64,000 nt of DNA from Thermococcus sp. 21S7 (GTDB lineage: Archaea; Methanobacteriota_B; Thermococci; Thermococcales; Thermococcaceae): assembly GCF_012027615.1 (NCBI RefSeq), contig NZ_SNUT01000006.1, forward strand, positions 124,001 through 188,000, written 5' to 3'. The position numbers and the translations under genes are program-made. The notes under the pieces were generated by a model, which ran no database searches, was not told the origin of the DNA, and saw only the letters and a program-made list of their open reading frames with translations. Positions 15,016-17,987 of this stretch are shown piece after piece. Every line of letters starts with the position of its first letter. Position 1 is the first letter of the stretch.

Positions 15016-15324
15016 ATGGAGCGCGAATTCAGGCTGATTCTCGGCGAAGACCTTGCCAACTACCTCGAACTCATAAGGGCAAAGTTAGCGTTTGCCGAGG
15101 AGCTGTACGGGATAAAGATGAACTACGTGCCCCTGATCACGGAGGGGGAGATAGTCATACTCGACAAGAACGACGGAAAAATCAAGTGGCTGAAGAACAA
15201 AAGACCGCTCACCCTTGAGGAGTTCAAGACACTGGCGGATAAAATAAAGGAGAACCTTGAGTCAGGCTACGTCGAGATGCTCCTGGCCATGAACATGTCC
15301 TGCGTCCACGGGCCCGGGGAGTGA
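15016..15324 (+). CDS. Hypothetical protein next to tungstoenzyme operon
   Basis: A 102-residue, soluble, charged protein. The ATG follows GGTGGGAAG, and a TATA-like GATTAATAAA lies about 35 bases before it. The sequence alternates helical and strand-like segments (RLILGEDLANYLELIRAKL; then PLITEGEIVILDK) and has a single Cys (MSCVH). I recognise no family. It converges on the moaD-like gene, and its last 63 bases are antisense to that gene's odd C-terminal tail. Its position at the end of the AOR operon may be chance. Confidence 0.6.
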   Translation: MEREFRLILGEDLANYLELIRAKLAFAEELYGIKMNYVPLITEGEIVILDKNDGKIKWLKNKRPLTLEEFKTLADKIKENLESGYVEMLLAMNMSCVHGPGE

Positions 15325-15543
15325 GCCGCCGTAGACCACCGGGAGCACCTTGATTCTGTCGCCCTCCCTGAGGGGATGACTCTCTTCTACCCTCTTCTCG
15401 TTCACCAGGATGTGGTGCTCGTCCGTCCCTATTCCCAGCTCCCTTAGGAGTTCACCCACCCTTTTCCCTTCCTCGACCTCAAGCTCCCTCTGCGAGCCGT
15501 GTTTTAGAGCGTGCTCCCCGTAGAGTATCAGCGTTACCCTCAT
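15262..15543 (-). CDS. MoaD/ThiS-like sulfur carrier with extra C-terminal tail
   Basis: 93 residues from the ATG at 15543 (ribosome site GGTGGT). Residues 1-73 have the beta-grasp MoaD/ThiS pattern: an N-terminal strand MRVTLILYG, then VGELLRELG, HILVNEKRV, LREGDRIKVLPVVYGG. In the family the Gly-Gly pair is the very C-terminus, which is adenylated and thiocarboxylated to supply sulfur for molybdopterin or tungstopterin. Here Gly72-Gly73 is followed by 20 more residues (SLPGPVDAG onward), all encoded antisense to the neighbouring gene. Either a stop codon was lost, or the tail is removed by a protease. It lies 12 bases downstream of the AOR-family gene, so it probably serves that enzyme's cofactor. 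Confidence 0.8.
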   Translation of the reverse strand: MRVTLILYGEHALKHGSQRELEVEEGKRVGELLRELGIGTDEHHILVNEKRVEESHPLREGDRIKVLPVVYGGSLPGPVDAGHVHGQEHLDVA

Positions 15544-15555
15544 GAAGACCACCGT

Positions 15556-17427
15556 TCAGAGGCCGAGGCGCTCCCTTATGCGCTTCACCTCGCGCTTTGC
15601 CTCTCCAAGCCCGAGTTCCTCCAGAACTTCCTCCTTCGGAATCCCGTGCTCGTCGTAGCCAACCTGCTCGTAGTACTGGCGAACCTTCTCGCTTATCTCC
15701 TCCTTGGTGGGGGCCCTTCCCTTGACCGGCCCGGTCGGGAGGGGTTCGTAGAACCTCGGCGGGTTGTCGTCGTCCTTCCTCGGATCCCAGTGGACGTCCG
15801 GCCCTCCGAGGAGGAGCAGAATCCTCTGGAGGTGGATTATCCTCAGGCCGGTTTCGTTGAACCACTTCTCCGGCGTCAGTTCAAAGCCCGTAACCGCGTT
15901 TCCGAACTCAAGGATTCTCTCGAAGCCGGGCCTCGTCGTGAACATGCAGATAACGGCCGAGTCGTAGAAGGCATTGACGAGTTCGCCCTCGTAGCTCCTC
16001 GCTGGAAGGGCCGCTGTTGACGTGTGGTCGCCTCCCTGAACCGAGACGGCATAGCTTATGTCCCTAGTGTAGTCGAGGTCGCTCCTTATTCCGTGGGCAC
16101 CGACTCCGATGCCCTTGACGTGGACTGCATATCTCATCGCATCGACGCCCTTCATCTCGGAGATTCTTCTCGCCGCGCGGTAGGTTCCCTCGGCCAGGAT
16201 TTCTCCTATGCCCTCTCTGGCAACTATCAGCTCAAGGAGCTTTGCGAAGGTCTTTTCGTCGCCCCACTCAAGCTTGAAGCCGATGTCCTCCTCCGTCAGG
16301 ATTCCGCGCTGGTAAAGCTCCGCCGTAAAGCCGAGGACGTTGCCCGCGTTTATGCCGTCCAGACCTAGCTCATCGACGAGGTATGAGAGATATACGACCT
16401 TCTCGGGGTCGAATATTCCGAGGTTGGTTCCCACGTAGGCCATCAGCTCGTAGTCCGGGGCGTCGGTTATCGAACCCTTGTACTCGCCGTAGCGGAGATA
16501 GGATATCTTCATGCAGTTCACGGGACAGCCGTAGTCGGCCCAGTACTTCTTTATCCAGGCCTTGAGCTCAAAGTTTACCACGCTTATCCTCTCGTCGTCG
16601 TGGTACTCCTCCTGCCAGTTCCTGACCGGCTGGCTTGAGCGGTCCTTGCCGACGCTGTAGCCTCCAGCCCCCGTTCCCCACTGGCGGAAGGTGGTAAGGG
16701 TTAGGAGTTCCCTCTGGAACTCCCTGAGAAGGGACCTGAACTTCTCTCTGTCATGGACTTCCGGCAGGGGGCCGTTACCTTTAACGAGCACCGCCTTGAG
16801 GTTCTTGCTTCCCATCACCGCACCGAAGCCGCCGTAGCCGGCGGCGTGCATCAGCTTGCTCATTATGGCAGCAAAGCGCACCTTCCTTTCCCCGCCCCTG
16901 CCGATGTACATCATCGCCGGCTCCTTCGGGACACCCCTCAGCCTGGCCCTCTTCCTCAGCTCGTCGTGAACTTCCTTCAGCAGGGTCTTGTGAAGCTCGA
17001 CACCGCCCATGCCCCAGTACTTCGAGGCGTCCCTTATCTCAACCTCGTCGTCGTTGATGAAAAGATAGACCGGCTCCTTTGCCCTTCCACGGATTATTAT
17101 TCCGTCGTAGCCGCTCGCCTTAAGCTCTATTCCCACCTCGCTGCTGAGGACGCTTCCCACTACCCCGTTGCTCTCGGGGGATTTGGCCACTACCGCCGTC
17201 TTTATCCCCGGGTAGTAGCCCGTCAGCGGGCCGGTGAGGATCAGAAGGAGGTTCTCCTCGCCTAGGGGGTCGACCCTTTCCCACTTCTCTCCGAGCTCCT
17301 TCCACAGGATGTACGTGCCAAGCCCTCTGCCGCCGTAGAAGCGGAGCATTTCCTCGTCCAGCTCGACGGTTTTCACGTTTCCTGTGCTCAAATCAACGTC
17401 CAGAAGCTTTCCAGCGTAGCCGTACAT
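15556..17427 (-). CDS. Tungsten aldehyde ferredoxin oxidoreductase family, WOR5-like large subunit
   Basis: 623 residues starting MYGYAGKLLDVDLSTG at the ATG at 17427. The AOR fold is plain: GGRGLGTYIL, GPLTGYYPG, AAGYGGFGAVMGSKNLKAV (tungstopterin and phosphate contacts), LGLDGINAGNVLGFT, and the C-terminal Cys in AVICMFTTRPG. The [4Fe-4S] motif, C-x2-C-x3-C in P. furiosus AOR, reads D-Y-G-C-P-V-N-C, so Asp replaces the first Cys ligand. The enzyme would oxidise aldehydes to acids, passing electrons through its cluster. The immediately upstream polyferredoxin gene (4 bases apart) suggests a heterodimeric enzyme of the WOR5 type rather than homodimeric AOR. The substrate is not known. Confidence 0.88.
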   Translation of the reverse strand: MYGYAGKLLDVDLSTGNVKTVELDEEMLRFYGGRGLGTYILWKELGEKWERVDPLGEENLLLILTGPLTGYYPGIKTAVVAKSPESNGVVGSVLSSEVGIELKASGYDGIIIRGRAKEPVYLFINDDEVEIRDASKYWGMGGVELHKTLLKEVHDELRKRARLRGVPKEPAMMYIGRGGERKVRFAAIMSKLMHAAGYGGFGAVMGSKNLKAVLVKGNGPLPEVHDREKFRSLLREFQRELLTLTTFRQWGTGAGGYSVGKDRSSQPVRNWQEEYHDDERISVVNFELKAWIKKYWADYGCPVNCMKISYLRYGEYKGSITDAPDYELMAYVGTNLGIFDPEKVVYLSYLVDELGLDGINAGNVLGFTAELYQRGILTEEDIGFKLEWGDEKTFAKLLELIVAREGIGEILAEGTYRAARRISEMKGVDAMRYAVHVKGIGVGAHGIRSDLDYTRDISYAVSVQGGDHTSTAALPARSYEGELVNAFYDSAVICMFTTRPGFERILEFGNAVTGFELTPEKWFNETGLRIIHLQRILLLLGGPDVHWDPRKDDDNPPRFYEPLPTGPVKGRAPTKEEISEKVRQYYEQVGYDEHGIPKEEVLEELGLGEAKREVKRIRERLGL

Positions 17428-17431
17428 GGTA

Positions 17432-17959
17432 TCACCCCAAAAACTCCTCCCCGTACATCTTCCTCGCCAGCTCGGTGCTCTTCTCAACCGGATCCTTGGC
17501 GAAGGTTCTGTACACCGAGCGGTACTGGCCTTTCACGAGAACCAGTGCATCGTGCCCGGCTTCATGACAGACCTCGACGCACTTCGGGCTTCCTCCGCAG
17601 AGGTCGCAGATTACCACGCTGCCCTTGCCAACCGGAATTCTCGGGACGTTGCCGGGGCACGCCAGAACACACGCCCCGCACTCGGTGCACTTCTCCTCGT
17701 TCACGAGCACGGCACCGGTTTTCTCATCGACGCTCAGTGCATCGAAGTTGCACGCCTTCACGCACGGGTAGTCTGGACACTGGACGCATGTGTGGGGGAC
17801 GTTGACGCCGGGCAGAAGCTCGTATATCCTTATACGCGATGCCTCTGGCCATATTATTCCCTCGTGCTCCAGGGAGCAGGCGATTTCACACAGTCTGCAG
17901 CCGCTGCACTTGTCCGGGGTTATCAGAATCCACATCCGCTCTACCGCTTCGTCACCCAT
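17432..17959 (-). CDS. Polyferredoxin subunit with four [4Fe-4S] sites
   Basis: 175 residues from the ATG at 17959 (AGGTGTT upstream). Sixteen cysteines form four clusters' worth of motifs: CSGCRLCEIAC, CVQCPDYPCVKAC, CTECGACVLAC and CDLCGGSPKCVEVC. This is the DmsB/HycB-like ferredoxin arrangement. With the AOR-family gene four bases downstream, it should be the electron-transfer subunit of that enzyme, as in P. furiosus WOR5. No signal peptide is present, so the complex is cytoplasmic. A TATA box (TTATATATG, minus strand, about 17993-18001) and a pair of repeats lie directly upstream. Confidence 0.88.
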   Translation of the reverse strand: MGDEAVERMWILITPDKCSGCRLCEIACSLEHEGIIWPEASRIRIYELLPGVNVPHTCVQCPDYPCVKACNFDALSVDEKTGAVLVNEEKCTECGACVLACPGNVPRIPVGKGSVVICDLCGGSPKCVEVCHEAGHDALVLVKGQYRSVYRTFAKDPVEKSTELARKMYGEEFLG

Positions 17960-17987
17960 TTGGAACACCTAGTATTCTACTTGGAAC
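17960..17987. repeat. Direct repeat TTGGAAC x2, 21 bp apart, in the tungstoenzyme promoter
   Basis: TTGGAAC occurs at 17960-17966 and 17981-17987, two helical turns apart, between the TATA box (about 17993-18001) and the ferredoxin start at 17959. The position over the likely transcription start suits a repressor-binding site. No known regulator is assigned. Confidence 0.35.

Follow-up and report, generated by a model that had tools for sequence, protein, structure and literature searches.

An extended ubiquitin-like carrier beside a tungsten oxidoreductase

Active ubiquitin-like proteins (Ubls) of the ThiS/MoaD kind need a C-terminal glycine. How, then, should one understand a gene of this kind in Thermococcus sp. 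21S7 that is translated beyond its Gly-Gly codons? Within the window analysed here, i.e. the whole stretch of 64,000 nucleotides from positions 124,001 to 188,000 of contig NZ_SNUT01000006.1, the minus-strand ORF 15262-15543 comprises 93 codons and a TGA stop, and its product consists of MRVTLILYGEHALKHGSQRELEVEEGKRVGELLRELGIGTDEHHILVNEKRVEESHPLREGDRIKVLPVVYGG followed by SLPGPVDAGHVHGQEHLDVA. The preliminary description of this locus had reported Gly72-Gly73 without a stop, followed by 20 further residues, and the translation bears this out. The 73-residue beta-grasp core (15325-15543), ending in VVYGG, is the portion conserved in all orthologues, and both glycines (codons GGC GGC, 15325-15330) are invariant in an alignment of 18 orthologues from the genus.

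The carrier scores 48.7 bits with Pfam ThiS (E 1.1e-12, cut-off 22.5), which places it in the ThiS/MoaD/SAMP family of beta-grasp proteins, and 32.5 bits with Pfam SAMP2 (E 1.2e-7, cut-off 27). It falls below the curated cut-offs of the archaeal MoaD profile TIGR01687 (26.4 bits, cut-off 49.5) and of the SAMP2 equivalog NF041919 (25 bits, cut-off 70). The earlier label “MoaD-like” thus holds at the level of the family, but the protein is not a canonical archaeal MoaD, and by profile score its domain is nearer ThiS/SAMP2. Among solved structures, P. furiosus SAMP2 (PDB 5LDA chain B, the PfJAMM1 entry) is the closest to it, and a structure model built from three sequences matches the structures of SAMP1, MoaD and TtuB. 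In this model the beta-grasp fold is confident as far as about residue 70 (pLDDT averaging 87-96 in each block of residues 1-70), with pLDDT below 50 across most of residues 72-93, the tail being predicted as disordered. Since VVYGG lies past the last strand of the model, and Gly-Gly itself in the low-confidence region, the fold does not explain why the two glycines are invariant at the end of the domain in 43/43 intact orthologues. Because 20 residues are encoded after Gly-Gly, which in this family is expected to be the encoded C-terminus, we class the protein as a putative precursor-type relative of the ThiS/MoaD/SAMP Ubls and not as a ready-made carrier.

Upstream of the carrier gene and on the same strand lie the genes for both subunits of a WOR5-type tungsten oxidoreductase, namely the catalytic subunit (15556-17427; Pfam AFOR_N and AFOR_C, with a 1200-bit match to P. 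furiosus WOR5, PDB 6X1O_A) and the Fe-S subunit (17432-17968; match to PDB 6X6U_B, E 1.9e-99). An enzyme of this type is described in a review as a taurine/aliphatic-sulfonate and aldehyde oxidoreductase (PMC12096430), and in two papers on tungsten oxidoreductases that deal with WOR5, that review included, there is no mention of MoaD. MoaD-like genes adjoining tungsten oxidoreductase genes are already known: AorD/AorE in Aromatoleum (PMC6365974) and the MoaD genes found next to AOR genes (PMC1779556, PMC2948915) likewise represent a MoaD-like gene in a tungsten-oxidoreductase operon with an Fe-S subunit. The enzyme is AOR there whereas it is WOR5 here, and the excerpts covered report no tail. 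The carrier would be a ThiS/SAMP2-type accessory Ubl, co-encoded with WOR5 and presumably helping to make or load the WOR5 tungstopterin.

The source genome also contains three other Ubls, all ending at Gly-Gly, two ThiF/E1-like genes, one of them directly behind a MoaD-type Ubl, and one MoaE gene. The ThiS/MoaD-type carriers UblA, UblB and UblC of T. kodakarensis serve tungsten cofactor synthesis and tRNA thiolation (PMC11323500); the WOR5-linked Ubl comes on top of the three Ubls reported there and is present in only some Thermococcaceae.

Junction with the convergent gene and origin of the tail

The tail is encoded at 15265-15324, and its 20 codons together with the stop (15262-15324) fall within a convergent conserved ORF of 102 aa on the plus strand (15016-15324). 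It had been claimed beforehand that all 20 extra residues are antisense to this gene and that codon 74, TCA, stands opposite its TGA stop. Both statements proved correct, the codon at 15322-15324 being read as a TGA stop on the plus strand and as TCA (Ser74) on the minus strand. Neither Pfam nor NCBIfam gives a match for the convergent ORF; its orthologues adjoin the carrier in most loci across Thermococcaceae, and within the genus they mostly end in CVxGPGE.

Untailed near relatives with the same convergent neighbour have the junction GGC-TGA-TCA-CTC (G025, G059, G026, G015 and G061, and in slightly altered form G027 and G029), in which the carrier stops right after Gly-Gly and its TGA directly abuts the stop of the neighbour. 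In the six genomes of the tailed clade, source genome included (G000, G032, G058, G035, G054, G004), exactly 3 bases are missing relative to this arrangement, and the junction reads GGC/GGG TCA CTC, or TCA TTC in G004. Comparison of these junctions indicates that a 3-base deletion in an ancestor merged the two adjacent stop codons into a single codon that can be used by only one of the genes, and that translation of the carrier would since have continued for 20 residues beyond Gly-Gly into the antisense strand. TAA, TAG and TGA all have sense codons as their reverse complements, so the one codon left can terminate only one of the two genes. Were the carrier to regain its stop there by a single substitution, the neighbour would lose its own, so that the extension is hard to reverse in one step. 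The locus is a clean example of a small deletion between convergent genes that fuses two stops into a codon unable to serve both. Sequencing error was considered as the source of the tail and rejected: the junction recurs in five other genomes, among them the single-contig genome G058 and the four-contig genome G032, and tails are also found in the single-contig genomes G065, G073 and G087.

Tail lengths in the six genomes, in the order given above, are 20, 20, 13, 20, 20 and 30 residues, and are set by chance stops in the antisense frame. In the overlap, G000 and G004 differ by 1 synonymous and 10 non-synonymous changes in the frame of the tail, compared with 8 synonymous and 3 non-synonymous changes in that of the neighbour, and pairwise changes in general mostly alter the amino acids of the tail and are more often silent for the neighbour. 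The variable length, the substitutions that mostly suit the frame of the neighbour and the predicted disorder mark the tail as a by-product, in all likelihood with no function of its own. That it has been kept in six genomes might instead point to a function in its own right, e.g. in targeting or regulation, but its inconstant length, its changes that follow the neighbour's frame, and the unrelated tails found elsewhere (see below) make this scarcely credible, and we reject it.

Selection on the carrier and recurrence of tails

The preliminary description had left two possibilities, a carrier matured by a JAMM-type protease or a dead one. Over the 73 codons of the domain, omega within the tailed clade is 0.00-0.16; between G000 and G004, 24 synonymous differences stand against 2 non-synonymous ones (Fisher P 9e-16). 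Gly-Gly is unchanged across the clade, with synonymous variation of its codons, and omega is similar in a second tailed group (YSPGP, below). Judged by its sequence, the carrier is alive and under continued strong purifying selection. Decay of the gene would fit the established need of such Ubls for a C-terminal glycine, but given the low omega in both groups, the lack of disabling changes in six tailed genomes at distances up to dS ~1 and the Gly-Gly that is invariant in all tailed lineages, a dead or decaying carrier is very improbable and was rejected.

A search of 94 family genomes yielded 45 carrier orthologues, 43 of them intact (the tails of G063 and G082 were excluded, these being partial or frameshifted copies from MAGs), and a wider search of the phylum found no further close orthologues beyond Thermococcaceae. 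Tails are present in 14 of the 43, some of the genomes concerned being MAGs. They comprise SLPG.../SLAG.../SFAR... in the clade of the source genome (6 genomes), YSPGP in G087, G088 and G089, YSPGV in G034, NSITDLTASFL in G065, LTFSQSYVLSKG in G091, LFSQAHVFSKCER in G073 and YSHI in G093, and several of these are unrelated to one another in sequence. The proposed check of orthologues for a stop directly after Gly-Gly therefore gives a divided answer: most do stop there, but one clade reads on, and tails of their own have arisen in several further lineages. A tree built from the 219 nt of the domain requires a minimum of 8 changes of tail state, an approximate figure given the weakly supported deep branches and one that may include regained stops.

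Other Ubls of the family served as controls. One tail (NAGC, G034) was seen among about 85 other Ubl copies in the genus, and in other genera 86 of 89 copies end at Gly-Gly, the three exceptions having AL, AL and II. Tails thus occur in 14/43 carriers versus about 4/174 other Ubl copies, the control counts being approximate since a few loci were sampled twice (Fisher P 3.5e-8, a descriptive value that treats related sequences as independent). Part of this excess may reflect mutational opportunity, since convergent abutting stops raise the chance of stop loss relative to the paralogues; among orthologues without a close convergent neighbour, only that of G065 has a tail.

The tailed paralogue in G034, a MAG, is a second Ubl ending in GGG-NAGC (L082, G034:C26:9459-10119) and is the only other paralogue seen in the genus with residues beyond Gly-Gly; the same MAG carries the YSPGV tail on its WOR5-linked Ubl. 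The three exceptions in other genera belong to a separate class of Ubls that ends in FLPVVHGG and has two residues after Gly-Gly in 3/3 genomes (L282 in G084, AL; L283 in G078, II; L284 in G079, AL).

That stop loss recurs in the WOR5-linked Ubl and hardly ever in other Ubls could also mean that this carrier can now do without a free glycine, serving WOR5 as a non-covalent partner or leaving the sulfur-carrier job to other Ubls, with Gly-Gly kept on other grounds, e.g. for docking. The three Ubls of the source genome that end at Gly-Gly and the partial redundancy of the T. kodakarensis Ubls (PMC11323500) speak in the same direction. If the terminal glycine were dispensable, however, substitutions at Gly-Gly would be expected, and no intact orthologue, with or without a tail, departs from the pair, despite its flexible, low-confidence surroundings. 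We regard this explanation as unlikely, and it is the remaining rival of weight. An invariant Gly-Gly at a flexible end, unrelated tails and purifying selection form the pattern expected of a precursor that is cut after Gly-Gly; the repeated gain of unrelated tails, while Gly-Gly never changed, suggests that the tail is clipped in the cell.

JAMM proteases and maturation of the carrier

The source genome encodes two JAMM proteases, each with its HxH...S..D motif intact; a tail behind Gly-Gly and a protease of this kind thus occur together, as expected for a JAMM-matured Ubl precursor. One of the two is an orthologue of PfJAMM1 (E 1.5e-42 to PDB 5LDA_A), with the motifs EICGFLFG and HSH...SGRD. 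JAMM1 is found in 13 of the 14 tailed genomes (in G091 as fragments), the exception being an 88%-complete MAG, but it is nearly universal in Thermococcaceae, untailed genomes included. A correlation of tails with JAMM1 is therefore uninformative, and the presence of the enzyme is permissive evidence that does not discriminate between explanations. The first residue after Gly-Gly varies as well (S, Y, N or L), so that no cleavage motif backs a particular protease.

CsJAMM of Caldiarchaeum cleaves SAMP precursors, and JAMM-1 of P. furiosus has been called promiscuous (PMC6043591); PfJAMM1 is also reported, in a paper citing Cao 2017 (PMC8832034), to recognise SAMP2 whatever is attached to it. 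The carrier is probably a precursor that is trimmed to Gly-Gly, most likely by a PfJAMM1-type protease, with an accidental tail that has no function. We infer that cleavage after Gly73 is the work of a general Ubl protease, for which the JAMM1 orthologue is the likeliest candidate and JAMM2 a less certain one, and that the exposed glycine would then be adenylated by an E1-like enzyme for use as a sulfur carrier. The JAMM alternative of the preliminary description is accordingly the one that stands as plausible, in view of the PfJAMM1 orthologue and the match to SAMP2 in 5LDA. Another protease, or unspecific trimming of the unstructured tail by peptidases, might also expose Gly73 with no involvement of JAMM, and would suit tails that are disordered and share no common sequence. 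Unspecific trimming would nevertheless have to halt exactly at Gly73, and exact trimming is what JAMM proteases do for archaeal and bacterial Ubls (PMC6043591, PMC8832034), which leaves this route quite improbable.

Known systems resemble the carrier in part. The SAMP/ubiquitin precursors of Caldiarchaeum subterraneum are beta-grasp proteins of an archaeon too, and JAMM-type proteases remove the residues that follow their Gly-Gly (PMC6043591); the tail of the present carrier, by contrast, is read antisense to a convergent gene, derives from deletion of a stop codon and is not conserved, and its cleavage is a prediction. P. furiosus SAMP2/PfJAMM1 (PDB 5LDA; Cao et al. 2017) offers the closest solved relative and an enzyme with an orthologue in the source genome; the solved SAMP2 chain ends at Gly-Gly, whereas the carrier, linked to WOR5, is a distinct copy whose similarity reaches only 33 bits. 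The MoaD-MoaE fusion cut by DRJAMM (PMC8832034) is likewise a sulfur carrier with material past its C-terminal glycine, for which the JAMM cut is required, but the C-terminal part is a working enzyme there and a random tail here. The novelty of this case lies in how the tail arose and in the repeated appearance of tails within a single Ubl family.

If processing is as proposed, this one family supplies ready-made substrates with several unrelated tails, and a role of JAMM1 in Ubl maturation in vivo, beyond the removal of conjugates, becomes testable in the genetically tractable Thermococcales. It is conceivable, although we lean against so strong a statement, that maturation by a protease is obligatory for the WOR5-linked carrier of Thermococcaceae, which, unlike its paralogues, has repeatedly gained random tails through collisions of convergent stop codons. 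If true, this would constitute a natural experiment on routine, sequence-tolerant Ubl maturation in hyperthermophilic archaea.

As a separate observation, the otherwise complete genome G023 has only a 47-residue match to JAMM1 with an in-frame stop (G023:C1:1205183-1205320), suggestive of a JAMM1 pseudogene. In the same genome the WOR5-linked Ubl lacks a tail, a single case (n=1) among the complete genomes that bear the orthologue.
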